A DNA stretch of 25,517 nt, taken from positions 1 through 25,517 of IMG/VR virus record IMGVR_UViG_3300025128_005476. One strand, written 5' to 3'. A program made the position numbers and the translations under genes. The stretch is from a virus. The notes below the pieces were generated by a model that made no database searches, was not told where the DNA came from, and saw only the letters and a program-made list of their open reading frames with translations. Below, piece by piece: positions 1,616 through 19,398 of this stretch (position 1 is its first letter; each line of letters opens with the position of its first letter).

Positions 1616-1632
1616 CTTATCCTCTACTTTCT
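1616..1632 (-). repeat. Start cassette family 1, copy 1
   Basis: A perfect copy of AGAAAGTAGAGGATAAG (minus strand). It ends 3 bases before the start codon at 1612. It contains the Shine-Dalgarno core (AGAGGA) and also the last codons and TAA stop of the preceding gene (…ESRG-stop). Confidence 0.9.
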
Positions 1633-1805
1633 ATTTGATCCATGAGAGCCTGTAGTTGTTGCCTTAATTCATATGTGTCATTGGAGACAAGCAACACACC
1701 GCGATACTCGACTGCATATTTTTCTCCTGTTGGTGGCAATCCCTTTCTAAAGTATTCACAATGCTTACCAATATACTCACTCGCTGTTTCACTGTTTGTG
1801 CTCAT
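1617..1805 (-). CDS. Hypothetical protein ending in ESRG, 62 residues
   Basis: This unrecognised protein has a polar N-terminus, a central strand-like stretch (KYAVEYRGVLLVSND) and a C-terminal helix (YELRQQLQALMDQIESRG). Its start lies 3 bases after a perfect start cassette (copy 2). Its own last four codons and stop are supplied by cassette copy 1. The shared C-terminal ESRG is therefore a by-product of the cassette rather than evidence of homology with the other genes that end the same way. Confidence 0.75.
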   Translation of the reverse strand: MSTNSETASEYIGKHCEYFRKGLPPTGEKYAVEYRGVLLVSNDTYELRQQLQALMDQIESRG

Positions 1806-1808
1806 TCT

Positions 1809-1825
1809 CTTATCCTCTACTTTCT
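1809..1825 (-). repeat. Start cassette family 1, copy 2
   Basis: A perfect copy of AGAAAGTAGAGGATAAG on the minus strand, ending 3 bases before the start codon at 1805. Here the preceding gene ends in a different frame: the TAG inside AAAGTAG is its stop (…RRK-stop). Confidence 0.9.
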
Positions 1826-2092
1826 TCTAATTAGTTTGCCGTACCAACCACTCATTTCATCAGCAATCCATATGTGTTGATCGCCCACGTTAGCGTTATC
1901 AATGAAGTCTTGCAGTTGTGCGACTACCCACTGTTCATGTTCGTCATATTCAGCATATTGAGTGGTATCGATTCCAAGTTCTTCGATTGTGTCATGCCTT
2001 GTCTCAAGACCTGTTACTACTAGCACTCCTGTGCCATTTTCTCCATCTTCGTGTGCCAGATAATAAGACTGTACCTCGAATTCCTTACTCAT
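1817..2092 (-). CDS. Hypothetical acidic protein, 91 residues
   Basis: The frame is open further upstream, but the ATG at 2092 (MSKEFEVQ…) is chosen because AGAGGTAGGAAT precedes it directly and because a longer version would run into the preceding gene. The protein is acidic, with strand-like segments (YYLAHEDGENGTGVLVVTG), a helix (QWVVAQLQDFI) and the phrase NANVGDQHIWIADE near the C-terminus. A similar 'xANVGD' phrase occurs near the C-terminus of the adjacent upstream gene, so the two may be diverged duplicates. I do not recognise the family. The stop lies inside start cassette copy 2. Confidence 0.75.
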   Translation of the reverse strand: MSKEFEVQSYYLAHEDGENGTGVLVVTGLETRHDTIEELGIDTTQYAEYDEHEQWVVAQLQDFIDNANVGDQHIWIADEMSGWYGKLIRRK

Positions 2093-2114
2093 ATTCCTAC
2101 CTCTTTTCTTTCTA
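2093..2114 (-). promoter_or_regulatory. Degenerate start cassette / strong ribosome-binding site
   Basis: On the minus strand this reads TTAGAAAGAAAAGAGGTAGGAAT directly before the start at 2092. It shares the AGAAAG and AGAGG blocks with cassette family 1 but differs between and after them. Its TAG is the stop of the preceding gene. Confidence 0.5.
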
Positions 2115-2342
2115 AAATATTCTTTCCCAACAGTCATACGTTCCTTGTCCATACATATTCGACTTACTATCACCTACGTTTGCAGTCATTAGGAATGTGT
2201 AAAATTCTGGATACTCTACCTCTCCATACATTCTGAAATCCCCATCACCTATGCCAAAGTTCTCCAATATATCTTGTAGGTCAAAGACTTCTGCATCAAT
2301 CTCTCTTGAGTCATAGTGAATAAATCTTTTTTCTTCAGTCAT
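2112..2342 (-). CDS. Hypothetical protein, 76 residues
   Basis: This unrecognised acidic protein contains a helix (AEVFDLQDILENFGIGDGD) and a strand-rich half with many aromatic residues (FRMYGEVEYPEFYTFLM). The phrase FLMTANVGDSKS near the C-terminus matches FIDNANVGDQH in the neighbouring gene, suggesting a diverged tandem duplicate or a shared short module. The start at 2342 lies 3 bases after start cassette copy 3. The stop overlaps the first bases of a degenerate cassette. Confidence 0.75.
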   Translation of the reverse strand: MTEEKRFIHYDSREIDAEVFDLQDILENFGIGDGDFRMYGEVEYPEFYTFLMTANVGDSKSNMYGQGTYDCWERIF

Positions 2343-2345
2343 TCT

Positions 2346-2362
2346 CTTATCCTCTACTTTCT
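2346..2362 (-). repeat. Start cassette family 1, copy 3
   Basis: A perfect copy of AGAAAGTAGAGGATAAG on the minus strand, ending 3 bases before the start at 2342. It encodes the terminal ESRG-stop of the upstream gene. Confidence 0.9.
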
Positions 2363-2631
2363 AAGTCTTGCAATACTAATGCTTGGCAATTTATCGGTAG
2401 CGTTTCAAACTCTATTACCTTATCGTTAGTTCCCCATACTGAGTATCTTGTAGTCATCTCACCATGTTGACCGAACCCTTGAGGGTGAAACGGATTCTCT
2501 GACATTCCCACATATGGAAATACTCCATTTTCCGACTCATATAAGACCATGTATCTATCAAATACTTTCTTACCACTATCACAAATCAATAACACACCAT
2601 TTGGATATGATTTCCTAGACTTTCTACTCAT
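2347..2631 (-). CDS. Conserved-looking hypothetical phage protein, 94 residues
   Basis: This protein begins with a basic stretch (SRKSRKSYPNG), then strands (VLLICDSGKKVFDRYMVLYES) and a distinctive loop, MSENPFHPQGFGQHGEM (residues about 43-59). I have the impression that this loop is typical of a family of phage hypothetical proteins, which a profile search could confirm. No catalytic motif is evident, although the HPQGFGQHG segment has two histidines that could bind metal. Start: 4 bases after start cassette copy 4. The last residues (LESRG) and stop come from cassette copy 3. Confidence 0.78.
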   Translation of the reverse strand: MSRKSRKSYPNGVLLICDSGKKVFDRYMVLYESENGVFPYVGMSENPFHPQGFGQHGEMTTRYSVWGTNDKVIEFETLPINCQALVLQDLESRG

Positions 2632-2635
2632 GATT

Positions 2636-2652
2636 CTTATCCTCTACTTTCT
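2636..2652 (-). repeat. Start cassette family 1, copy 4
   Basis: A perfect copy of AGAAAGTAGAGGATAAG on the minus strand, ending 4 bases before the start at 2631. Here it is entirely intergenic, because the upstream gene stops at 2661. The sequence is therefore retained without any coding role. Confidence 0.9.
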
Positions 2653-2660
2653 TCTAAATT

Positions 2661-2996
2661 TTAGTCGTATACAATTTCCCCAAACAAAGCCTGTTGTAAT
2701 AACAGGTCGCCAGAACAGGCATCAGGCTCGTATAAAATGTGATAACCCCCACAATGTGTAGCATTTGACTCGTCTAGGCTGAGATACGCTCTAACGAGAG
2801 TTTTTAGAGTCAATGTGCGAGTCATCATGTTGTCTTTGTAAGGATTCAAAAAAACCACCTTCACTTTATTGTCGTACATAAATACTTCGCTATATATCGC
2901 AGGGTGATAAGTGCCTGCTTCGACTGCTTCCCAAACGCTTAATGCCAACCGATCATATGCGTCTTGTGTCATTGATATTTGTACTGTCTTACTCAT
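2661..2996 (-). CDS. Conserved-looking hypothetical phage protein, 111 residues
   Basis: The protein starts with strands and a helix (TVQISMTQDAYDRLALSVWEAVEAG), continues with strands (VKVVFLNP), a helical segment with a TRTLTL strand, and a C-terminus (HCGGYHILYEPDACSGDLLLQQALFGEIVYD, in part) that recalls hypothetical proteins of actinophages, from memory only. C83 lies in the HCGG turn and a second cysteine in PDACSGD. The start at 2996 is 3 bases after start cassette copy 5. The stop lies 8 bases before cassette copy 4. Function is unknown. Confidence 0.78.
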   Translation of the reverse strand: MSKTVQISMTQDAYDRLALSVWEAVEAGTYHPAIYSEVFMYDNKVKVVFLNPYKDNMMTRTLTLKTLVRAYLSLDESNATHCGGYHILYEPDACSGDLLLQQALFGEIVYD

Positions 2997-2999
2997 GTT

Positions 3000-3016
3000 C
3001 TTATCCTCTACTTTCT
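3000..3016 (-). repeat. Start cassette family 1, copy 5
   Basis: A perfect copy of AGAAAGTAGAGGATAAG on the minus strand, ending 3 bases before the start at 2996. It encodes ESRG-stop of the upstream gene. Confidence 0.9.
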
Positions 3017-3207
3017 AATTTCTCAACGGCATTGAGATATATTTCGTAACCATTCTCACTAAGACTGTCGATGCTTAATATTGGTGACGGCTTGAAGTAT
3101 TCCGTCAGTCGTGACAGTTTGCGATACCCTGAAGACCATTGCCCACCATGATATTCACTTAGAGCCAGATACCACGCTTCGCATATATCGAATCTATCAA
3201 AATACAT
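3001..3207 (-). CDS. Hypothetical protein ending in ESRG, 68 residues
   Basis: This unrecognised small protein has an N-terminal helix rich in aromatic residues (RFDICEAWYLALSEYHGG), a basic connector (YRKLSRLTEYFKPSP) and a C-terminal helix (YEIYLNAVEKLESRG). The 'Y-h-A-L-S-x-Y-H-G-G-Q-W-S' phrase is reminiscent of small phage helical proteins, but no family can be named. It starts 3 bases after start cassette copy 6 and its ESRG end is encoded by copy 5. Confidence 0.75.
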   Translation of the reverse strand: MYFDRFDICEAWYLALSEYHGGQWSSGYRKLSRLTEYFKPSPILSIDSLSENGYEIYLNAVEKLESRG

Positions 3208-3210
3208 ATT

Positions 3211-3227
3211 CTTATCCTCTACTTTCT
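3211..3227 (-). repeat. Start cassette family 1, copy 6
   Basis: A perfect copy of AGAAAGTAGAGGATAAG on the minus strand, ending 3 bases before the start at 3207. It encodes ESRG-stop of the upstream zinc-ribbon gene. Confidence 0.9.
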
Positions 3228-3367
3228 AGTTTGATTTGTTCACATTTATTGCAATACGGATTCTGTTTTATCATTGCTAATGTAGTTTGCTCATCAGTGA
3301 ATGATTCAACCAACAATGTCATTCCACATTTCTTGCATGAATATAACTTCTCAATTACTTTTGACAT
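3212..3367 (-). CDS. Small zinc-ribbon protein, 51 residues
   Basis: This short gene fills the gap between its neighbours. The product has two CxxC knuckles, C11-x2-C14 and C39-x2-C42, spaced by 24 residues as in a classical zinc ribbon (YSCKKCGM … YCNKCEQ). The N-terminus MSKVIEKLY is strand-like. It starts within the stop of the preceding gene (TAATG overlap), so it depends on coupled translation rather than on a cassette. Its end, KLESRG-stop, is encoded by cassette copy 6. Metal binding is a confident inference; the partner is unknown. It is distinct in spacing from the other zinc-ribbon gene in the operon. Confidence 0.75.
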   Translation of the reverse strand: MSKVIEKLYSCKKCGMTLLVESFTDEQTTLAMIKQNPYCNKCEQIKLESRG

Positions 3368-3609
3368 TACGCTATTTCCTCACTTCCTAGACTGTCTATA
3401 ATCTGATTGAATTGATCCCTAGCTATTTGTTCTGTCTCGAATATTGCATAGTCAAAAAACCCTTGACTATCTTCTGATATGATTGCTTTATGTTCTACTA
3501 TCAATCCGAACCAACCTAATTCATCTACGGATCCACCTTGATCATCTAAAAATCCATTCATAGCAATATCATTCAACATTTCGCCCGTTTCATCTATGTA
3601 CTTATTCAT
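3367..3609 (-). CDS. Hypothetical acidic protein, 80 residues
   Basis: The ATG at 3609 (MNKYIDETGEML…) is preferred over one five codons upstream. The upstream ATG lies inside the ribosome-binding segment AGTATGAGGATAAGAGAC, which is a variant of the repeated start cassette. The product is acidic, with a helix, a hydrophobic strand pair (WFGLIVEHKAIISED) and a C-terminal helix (FETEQIARDQFNQIIDSL). It is not recognised. An acidic small early protein could be a DNA mimic or an inhibitor of a host enzyme, but nothing in the sequence proves this. Its stop overlaps the next start. Confidence 0.72.
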   Translation of the reverse strand: MNKYIDETGEMLNDIAMNGFLDDQGGSVDELGWFGLIVEHKAIISEDSQGFFDYAIFETEQIARDQFNQIIDSLGSEEIA

Positions 3610-3613
3610 GTCT

Positions 3614-3630
3614 CTTATCCTCATACTTTC
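3614..3630 (-). repeat. Start cassette family 1, divergent copy 7
   Basis: Minus strand GAAAGTATGAGGATAAG differs from the 17-mer by one inserted base (AGTATGAGG for AGTAGAGG). It ends 4 bases before the start at 3609. It is intergenic. Confidence 0.75.
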
Positions 3631-3641
3631 CTATAATTTGG

Positions 3642-4208
3642 TTATCCATTCCTAGACTGGATAAATGTATCTTCTAGGCTCTGATTTTCTACGTGATTAT
3701 ATGTCATGTTTCGTGCTATCGTTTCAACGCTTTTATTACCAAACATATCAGCCCAATCTGTACCAGTATTTCCAGTAATGACGTTATTACTTCGTATCCA
3801 CCATACAGCCTTCGTATATTTTGTTTCGTAGTCTGTTATGTGTCGAGTACAGAATATGTATTTGGCTCCGAATTGCACAATTTTTGTTCCCTCTGGTAAG
3901 CTATCTGATCTGTTGTCTATTTCTGAAATATATCCAGTTGTTCCCTCTCTGTAATGTAATGTAATCGAGCCATCAGGGAATAAGTAATGCGATTGGCTAT
4001 AATCTAGGTCAATCATGCCATCAAAACCGCCTGCTTCATATTGTTCAGTGATTGCCTCAACGTCTTTTCTTAATGGTCCATCTTCCCAGTGAATTTTTAT
4101 ACAATTATGATCTGATCTGATCGAGAAAACTTGTTTCGGAAAACTAGCTTTTAACGCTTTTCTAATATGTTTCGCTGTATCTTTTGAACTAATATATATT
4201 TTTTCCAT
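3642..4208 (-). CDS. LPD29-like domain protein, 188 residues
   Basis: The N-terminal half (about residues 1-75) matches the pattern I know from the LPD29 domain of large phage and mobile-element polyvalent proteins: YISSKDTAKHIRKALKASFP, then FSIRSDHNCIKIHWEDGP, a helix (VEAITEQYE) and GGFDGMIDLDYSQSHY. LPD domains occur beside methylase, helicase and antirestriction modules; their biochemical role is not established. The C-terminal half is unrecognised, with strands and the phrase YIFCTRHITDYE. It is the largest gene of the early operon and stands alone here instead of being part of a polyprotein. The start at 4208 follows a second type of start cassette. The family call is from memory of the profile, not from a search. 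Confidence 0.65.
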   Translation of the reverse strand: MEKIYISSKDTAKHIRKALKASFPKQVFSIRSDHNCIKIHWEDGPLRKDVEAITEQYEAGGFDGMIDLDYSQSHYLFPDGSITLHYREGTTGYISEIDNRSDSLPEGTKIVQFGAKYIFCTRHITDYETKYTKAVWWIRSNNVITGNTGTDWADMFGNKSVETIARNMTYNHVENQSLEDTFIQSRNG

Positions 4209-4230
4209 TTTCTATACTTCCATTTCTTCT
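4209..4230 (-). repeat. Start cassette family 2, copy a
   Basis: The 22 bases directly before the start at 4208 differ from copy b (4311-4332) at one position only. The cassette also encodes the end of the preceding gene (EEMEV-stop). Confidence 0.85.
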
Positions 4231-4310
4231 AAAATTTCTAATTCTGCAATGTCCTGGTCAGTCTCTGTACTCTCAAAATCCAAGTCTATCAATATTTCTA
4301 TTATGCTCAT
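4212..4310 (-). CDS. Micro-protein, 32 residues, ending EEMEV
   Basis: This very short gene sits exactly between two copies of start cassette family 2. Its ATG directly follows copy b, which has a strong GGAGG site, and its stop lies in copy a. The product is extremely acidic (MSIIEILIDLDFESTETDQD, then IAELEILEEMEV), with only negatively charged or hydrophobic residues in its second half. Because 22-base flanks are nearly identical on both sides, the unit looks like a mobile or duplicated gene cassette. The last five residues are cassette-encoded. Translation is likely given the start site; a function cannot be assigned. Confidence 0.6.
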   Translation of the reverse strand: MSIIEILIDLDFESTETDQDIAELEILEEMEV

Positions 4311-4332
4311 TTTCTATACCTCCATTTCTTCT
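4311..4332 (-). repeat. Start cassette family 2, copy b
   Basis: The 22 bases directly upstream of the start at 4310 contain GGAGGTATAGAAA before the ATG. They encode EEMEV-stop of the upstream gene. One mismatch to copy a. Confidence 0.85.
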
Positions 4333-4502
4333 ACACGAATTCGAATGTCTTTATTTCTTAACCAATGCCTAGGCGTCCATTCTGCGTATGTGCCTACTAA
4401 ATGCTCTTTATCTTCTATAGCTTCTGATCTTGTCATGTATCCGTTTTCTATTTCCCAATCTCCATTGGCGTTTAAATACTCTAACCAGTAATATTTATAC
4501 AT
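4314..4502 (-). CDS. Hypothetical protein, 62 residues
   Basis: The product begins YKYYWLEYLNANGDWEIENGY, a likely strand-turn-strand, followed by a helix (TRSEAIEDKEHLVG) and a basic, tryptophan-containing segment (WTPRHWLRNKDIRIRV). No family is recognised. Its final EEMEV is encoded by cassette family 2 copy b. Its start lies directly after a third, shortened copy of the same cassette. Confidence 0.72.
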   Translation of the reverse strand: MYKYYWLEYLNANGDWEIENGYMTRSEAIEDKEHLVGTYAEWTPRHWLRNKDIRIRVEEMEV

Positions 4503-18531: not shown

Positions 18532-19398
18532 ATGGCTACAGGAAATATAACAACTGGATCATTAGCAGATAGTTTAGATACTATTCAAGCTGCTGCTAGA
18601 TCACGAAGACAATTTGACGGCGTAGTTCCTCAACTCGTAGACCGGGTTGAGTTAGACGCTAACACTGGTACAAGCTGGAGAGAAGTCTTGCTTGCTAATC
18701 TGTCTGCACAAGCAGTAACAGAGAACACAGTATTGGACAACCCACAGCAGTACGATGATTCTGCAATCACCATCACACCAGAAATGGTGCAGATACAGAC
18801 TTTCATCACAGACAAGAGCCGAAGGAATATTAACAGTAGAGTTCTTGCTAAGATGGGAGCCATGCCCGGTGAGGCAATGATGAGAAAGAAGGATCAGGAT
18901 GGCTTAACAGCTATGGATGCTTCTACTCAGTTAGGTGCAGCAGGAACCCCAGTACAGACAGGGGATGTGGCTTCAGCACGATATAGAATTACTTCTAACG
19001 CAACAGAGCCGGGTCCAATGCCAATATCTGGAGTGTTCCACGGATTTGCTATCAAAGACTTCTACGATGAACTCGTAGGGGGTACAGGAACATATCCAGT
19101 ACCAGATGGTGCTACGGCAACTGTGTTCCAGAGTGGCTTTAACTTGCCTATTGCAAACGTGAGTATCTTTGAGGATGGCAACATCAGCATTGACGGCTCA
19201 GATGACGCAAAGAACTTTGTGTTCTCCAAGTCTGCATGGGTATTGGTTGAGGGCATGACAATCAGGACAGAGACTAGGCGTGAGCCACACATAGGTGGTG
19301 GTGGAGACAGCTTATTCCTTACGGATGAGTATGCTTATGGTCTACGTTCTTCTAACTGGACATTTGAGATTATAGGAGACGCAAGCGCTCCTGCATAG
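18532..19398 (+). CDS. Probable major capsid protein
   Basis: This 288-residue protein follows the scaffold candidate by two genes, with a strong GGGAGGTAGC site before its ATG. Its N-terminus is a helical arm (SLADSLDTIQAAARSRRQFDGVVPQLVD); the phrase TSWREVLLANLSAQAVTENTVLDNPQQYDDS, in part, and strand TITPEMVQIQTFITDK fit coat proteins of the HK97-like fold. In the second half lie a 'GFAIKDFYDELVGG' helix and a 'WVLVEGMTIRTETRREPHIGG' segment close to the C-terminus, as expected for an axial domain strand set. The identification is by position, size and general pattern, and a structure comparison would settle it. Confidence 0.72.
   Translation: MATGNITTGSLADSLDTIQAAARSRRQFDGVVPQLVDRVELDANTGTSWREVLLANLSAQAVTENTVLDNPQQYDDSAITITPEMVQIQTFITDKSRRNINSRVLAKMGAMPGEAMMRKKDQDGLTAMDASTQLGAAGTPVQTGDVASARYRITSNATEPGPMPISGVFHGFAIKDFYDELVGGTGTYPVPDGATATVFQSGFNLPIANVSIFEDGNISIDGSDDAKNFVFSKSAWVLVEGMTIRTETRREPHIGGGGDSLFLTDEYAYGLRSSNWTFEIIGDASAPA

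Follow-up and report, generated by a model that had tools for sequence, protein, structure and literature searches.

The start-associated sequences (SAS) of cluster K mycobacteriophages follow a 13-bp consensus, GGGATAGGAGCCC, occur in 11–19 copies per genome and stand mostly before genes with an upstream gap of >50 bp; about half are accompanied by 17-bp imperfect inverted repeats (ESAS) (PMC3203893). Microbacterium cluster EF phages likewise carry SAS, ten unusually conserved 13-bp motifs at ribosome-binding sites (GGGAAAGGACCCC), each tied to an upstream extended motif (PMC7302621). The mobile promoter–stem-loop cassettes (PeSL) of T4-type phages, as described in PMC4503421 (citing Arbiol 2010 and Comeau 2014), are short regulatory repeats made up of a promoter and a stem-loop; they lie between genes and allow these to be shuffled. 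Finally, gene 14 of phage Corndog is a gene present or absent between two 17-bp direct repeats, a single case with no link to a repeated start signal, and cluster O has further 17-bp repeats, which are palindromic and unconnected with start codons (PMC4351075).

Here we establish the position, copy number and coding overlap of a repeat in an uncultured tailed bacterial virus, the short tails that it appends to proteins, and the breaks in homology that fall at start-associated sequences. The DNA analyzed (the window) is the whole virus record, a linear fragment of 25,517 bases. Its rightward block encodes both terminase subunits (small and large) and a capsid-like protein along with other structural genes, and its leftward block, the early region, holds ~20 small genes. 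BLASTN comparison of the early region with isolated phages gave no match, and scans of bacterial genomes with the major capsid protein and large terminase, aimed at identifying the host, found no relative. The major capsid-like protein (18532–19398) shows ~28% identity to Pelagibacter phage capsid proteins.

The repeat works like the cluster K SAS and is close to them in kind. Both are asymmetric repeats at the ribosome-binding site, located typically 3–7 bases before a start codon, mostly ATG, in cluster K and 3–4 bases before ATG in all six copies here; both are confined to non-structural genes, lie in one orientation and precede unrelated genes; both join a Shine-Dalgarno core, with possible further pairing to 16S rRNA, to conserved bases without pairing (judged here for an assumed CUUUCU tail of the 16S rRNA); and in both the upstream stop codon sometimes falls within the repeat (PMC3203893). 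The first-pass annotation of this DNA had drawn the same parallel, rightly as to position, strand and place among non-structural genes, and had also seen that the sequences differ (AGAAAGTAGAGGATAAGA here, GGGATAGGAGCCC there); the tight spacing and the inverted-repeat differences found here were absent from its comparison. Gaps of >50 bp in cluster K contrast with 4–29 bases in the window, no inverted repeats are listed at the cassettes, most of which overlap the upstream gene (hairpins of that sort do occur in another virus, L169), and the cluster K copy number of 11–19 per genome compares with six in a 25.5-kb fragment. Because sequence, spacing and inverted repeats all differ, we do not class the cassette as a member of the cluster K SAS.

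Unlike the cluster EF motifs, the copies described here show no associated extended motif. From PeSL, as described in that source, the cassette differs in that it combines a translation start with a stop codon and lacks a stem-loop; neither a promoter-like site nor a terminator is listed at the cassettes. Exchange with joints at the cassettes, on the other hand, is found between the window and a close relative (L037), with an analogous case in a pair of unrelated viruses (L090 and L113). The evolutionary role of the cassette resembles that of PeSL cassettes, without the promoter or stem-loop.

The explanation that we favor, and regard as probable, is that the repeat is a gene-joint cassette, which acts as a ribosome-binding site in RNA and as a point of gene exchange in DNA. 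This explanation is testable, and it bears on similar repeats in other phages that have gone unexplained since 2011.

Six identical blocks before start codons

The first-pass annotation had reported six perfect 17-base copies on the minus strand, and all are there. This sequence, AGAAAGTAGAGGATAAG, occurs in six exact copies on that strand only, and the identical block extends to 18 bases, AGAAAGTAGAGGATAAGA, one more A being common to all six. Identity falls off sharply on both sides, the ATG excepted. No other site in the window matches the 17-mer at ≤2 mismatches, the next best (3 mismatches) being at 19334. Dinucleotide-preserving shuffles gave 0.18 matches at ≤3 mismatches, and seven matches were reached in 0/100 shuffles. 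All copies lie in the leftward early region and none in the rightward structural genes. The spacing to the ATG, for which 3–4 bases had been claimed, measures 4 bases for the copy at 2636 and 3 bases for the other five. An ATG followed by at least 40 open codons stands 3–4 bases downstream of only 1.5% of the leftward region's minus-strand positions, so that 6/6 placement would arise by chance at ~1e-11. The variant copy that had also been noted is present at 3614–3631 (minus strand, GGAAAGTATGAGGATAAG); it begins with G in place of A, contains an extra T, and stands 4 bases ahead of the ATG at 3609.

In a non-random and partly interrelated set of 149 viral loci, each spanning at least 4 kb, a start-linked 17-mer is found more than three times only in records of this virus, and three times in one other locus, L113. 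An IMG/VR scan recovered the exact 17-mer in 16 contigs: a near-identical record (L019) with 5 copies, two close relatives with 1 copy each, and 13 others with one copy apiece, of which 4 have it directly before an ATG and 7 at the same internal coding sequence. A looser pattern, AGAAAGTAGAGG-TAA-ATG, was also searched in IMG/VR; the matches listed were mostly isolated ones in unrelated contigs and were taken as background.

Gene duplication does not account for the copies, because the genes downstream of the cassettes are not paralogues (weak likeness is seen only for one pair, with starts at 2092 and 2342) and DNA similarity among the array genes is almost wholly confined to the 3′ ends that bear the cassette. 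No known RNA family was found in the window, L169 or L037.

Stop codons and protein tails supplied by the cassette

Each cassette contains GAGG at Shine-Dalgarno distance, AGAAAG two bases upstream of GAGG, and the triplets TAG and TAA, which close two of the three reading frames and leave the third open throughout. Since TAG and TAA lie inside the cassette, an upstream gene can end on the start signal of the next one, and the gaps between genes at the six joints are 4, 4, 4, 4, 11 and 29 bases. The cassette encodes a terminal ESRG-stop in 4/6 joints, while one upstream gene ends at TAG and one copy is intergenic. On the minus strand throughout, the copy at 1615–1632 (AGAAAGTAGAGGATAAGA) supplies ESRG-stop to gene 1617–1805 and precedes gene 1442–1612; that at 2345–2362 does so for gene 2347–2631 ahead of gene 2112–2342; that at 2999–3016 for gene 3001–3207 ahead of gene 2661–2996; and that at 3210–3227 for gene 3212–3367 ahead of gene 3001–3207. 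The TAG of the copy at 1808–1825 terminates the gene ending at 1817 (RRK-stop), before gene 1617–1805, and the copy at 2635–2652 is fully intergenic, the upstream stop coming earlier, 4 bases before gene 2347–2631. This supply of a stop and of the last residues of the upstream gene had no place in the first-pass annotation, whose interpretation is otherwise supported in part.

Comparison with tail-less homologues indicates where these residues come from. Window proteins ending EEYTHESRG, QDLESRG and LESRG have homologues that end EEYTHE (L190), EEYTHIA (L189), DEYTHQSA (L191) or DSYAV (L035) in the first case, QDLKSYKQYK (L169), QDLTD (L172) or RDLA (L173) in the second, and LKSAV (L033) in the third. 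Because the homologues in other viruses end differently, the ESRG tail derives from the cassette. One joint of L037 likewise has a cassette-encoded ESRG-stop on its upstream gene. Unrelated proteins thus acquire short tails from cassettes, a point of importance when small phage genes are annotated.

That ESRG ends four proteins in the window and one in L037 could mean that the peptide itself is the selected feature, a shared C-terminal tag functional in the proteins. We consider this scarcely credible, as the five copies show no synonymous change, reading GAA AGT AGA GGA TAA in every case, and the same DNA recurs unchanged at 1808 and 2635, where it is read in another frame or not read at all. 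The invariant codons and these two copies outside the frame both disfavor a functional tag.

Another start repeat built along these lines, GAAGAAATGGARGTATAGAAAATG, occurs in two minus-strand copies and encodes EEMEV-stop. The copy at 4206–4229 (GAAGAAATGGAAGTATAGAAAATG) holds the ATG of gene 3642–4208 and gives EEMEV-stop to the preceding gene, and the copy at 4308–4331 (GAAGAAATGGAGGTATAGAAAATG) provides EEMEV-stop to gene 4314–4502 and starts gene 4212–4310.

Predicted pairing with 16S rRNA

The 16S rRNA of many bacteria, Bacillus subtilis 168 among them, ends CUUUCU; in Escherichia coli K-12 the tail is CUUA. In cassette RNA acting as a ribosome-binding site, GAGG would pair with CCUC of the 16S 3′ end, and AGAAAG could extend the pairing through such a tail. 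With CUUUCU assumed for the host, GAGG and AGAAAG are predicted to pair and ATAAGA is not; single changes at TA (positions 7–8) or ATAAGA (positions 13–18) do not weaken the predicted duplex, so pairing leaves the conservation of these bases unexplained. Exchanging a CUUA tail for CUUUCU is predicted to strengthen the pairing of the cassette by 4.3 kcal/mol. Of the 14 other early starts, 57% gain at least 2 from the CUUUCU tail, a share that drops to 12% for the starts of structural genes and to 5% for control sites. Staphylococcus aureus is one bacterium with documented extended Shine-Dalgarno motifs (PMC13009471). Taken together, translation initiation with extended pairing would best account for the position and for GAGG and AGAAAG, provided that the host 16S rRNA ends CUUUCU. 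The remaining conserved bases find a partial explanation in the two stops and a further one in exchange among the cassettes. This gives a concrete pairing hypothesis, testable in laboratory strains.

The GAGG at Shine-Dalgarno distance, the fixed spacing of 3–4 bases to the ATG and the restriction to a single strand all speak against a second reading, in which a phage regulator would bind the repeat as DNA, in the manner of an operator or stoperator, or the repeat would be an embedded promoter. Many phage repeats are indeed operators, and the cluster K study weighed whether proteins bind its extended sequences (PMC3203893). Even so, promoter-like sites in the region do not exceed those in shuffles, none is listed at a minus-strand cassette, and embedded sigma-70 promoters showed no enrichment, so that we judge such a role very improbable.

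A strong ribosome-binding site under selection and nothing more is harder to set aside. In that case the identity of the copies would reflect a single optimum, and exchange would appear at start sites because crossovers elsewhere were lost. The position, the Shine-Dalgarno core and the predicted extended pairing are all in its favor, as is the retention of the core AGAAAGTAGAGG in relatives at roughly 70% terminase identity. We nonetheless find it unlikely, given that structural genes of the same genome have ordinary AAGGAGG-type sites and that several conserved bases have no pairing role; two features of the relatives, given below, also count against it.

Homology breaks at start-associated sequences

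If the repeat is a gene-joint cassette, its DNA would mark where small early genes enter, leave or replace one another as whole units, since after a crossover within a cassette the stop and the start still work on both sides. In this regard, alignment of the window with L037 finds no similarity upstream of the 1808 cassette, whereas identity begins at AGAGGATAAGAGA inside it, runs through the next two genes to ~1442 and then drops; differences within the shared stretch amount to one substitution and one inserted base. The block on the other side, seven small genes mostly joined by cassettes (1817–3609, minus strand), is replaced in L036 and L037 by two other, unrelated genes. At its right-hand edge lies a gene with an LPD29 domain (3642–4208, minus strand), and there the break falls in or near the end of that gene and not cleanly in an exact cassette. 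L037 lacks a gene of 62 residues (4314–4502, minus strand), and the similarity breaks off within the start-associated sequences that flank this gene.

The stretch around the variant at 3614, GGATAACCAAATTATAGGAAAGTA(T)GAGG, is common to the window and L033, with different genes on both sides. L090 (4731–7222, minus strand) and L113 (528–2524), two unrelated viruses, have several copies of a start-linked repeat unlike that of the window, AACAAAGGAGATAACTAATG; a gene flanked there by two copies of AACAAAGGAGATAACTA is carried by one virus and cleanly missing from the other. Each exchange event was observed in one or two relatives, and this comparison of sequences shows that genes have been swapped and lost at start-associated signals. 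This is direct comparative evidence that start-associated repeats mark joints of gene exchange. We infer that homology between cassettes drives these crossovers, as opposed to selection sparing only those that occur there.

A broader suggestion, possible but in our view doubtful, is that phages keep near-identical stop-plus-start joints because these make small accessory genes interchangeable, with a joint sequence that differs by phage group, and that SAS in general are exchange joints. Short-homology recombination could then add, remove or swap a gene bounded by cassettes and leave its neighbors intact.

Conservation among relatives

L019 is nearly the same virus as the window, and L036 and L037 are close relatives whose terminase is 98–99% alike over the part that their records contain. 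Within 2.2 kb of otherwise identical sequence (around 452–640 in L036 and 1578–1766 in L037), the sole difference between these two is a pair of adjacent bases directly after their one exact cassette, AATATG versus AGAATG. AGA is the spacer of other cassettes, as conversion would give, which is one of the two features that weigh against a ribosome-binding site alone. From the sequences, the difference may be either conversion between cassettes or an assembly chimera.

Among more distant relatives, L035 and L038 (terminase 70–74%) have AGAAAGTAGAGG ahead of two genes, though the bases that follow it differ, as well as a single GGAAAGTAGAGG; one GGAAAGTAGAGG is found in L033 (terminase 68%). Conservation therefore exceeds the GAGG core, in agreement with the earlier proposal that more than GAGG is constrained: what the relatives keep is the 12-base AGAAAGTAGAGG. 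That proposal had offered "added constraint or recent spread" as alternatives, and both apply in part, exchange at joints on the one hand and the 12-base core kept at roughly 70% terminase identity on the other.

The second feature comes from G008, a 40-kb relative (terminase 73%) with its own, different repeated early start sequence, close to ATTACGAACAGGAGGAATTGAG. Terminase small-subunit-like reading frames at both ends of this contig (L179–L181) suggest that it is a nearly complete genome; no exact end repeat was found. Its capsid is 94% identical to the capsid-like protein of the window (18532–19398), yet the early regions are almost unrelated. Among the G008 genes tested for a recombinase, a RusA-like resolvase and a primase-polymerase were found, and no annealing protein.

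A further arrangement is seen in L169 (4709–6448), and also in L168, L170 and L171, where small genes are spaced ~90 bases apart. Several of these spacers contain a long inverted repeat with paired changes, such as AATGTCTATATTAG ... CTAATATAGGCATT and GTGTCTATCTTAG ... CTAAGATAGGCACT. The inverted repeats directly precede a start signal such as AGAAAGTAGAGAAA, a layout that resembles the extended SAS of cluster K.
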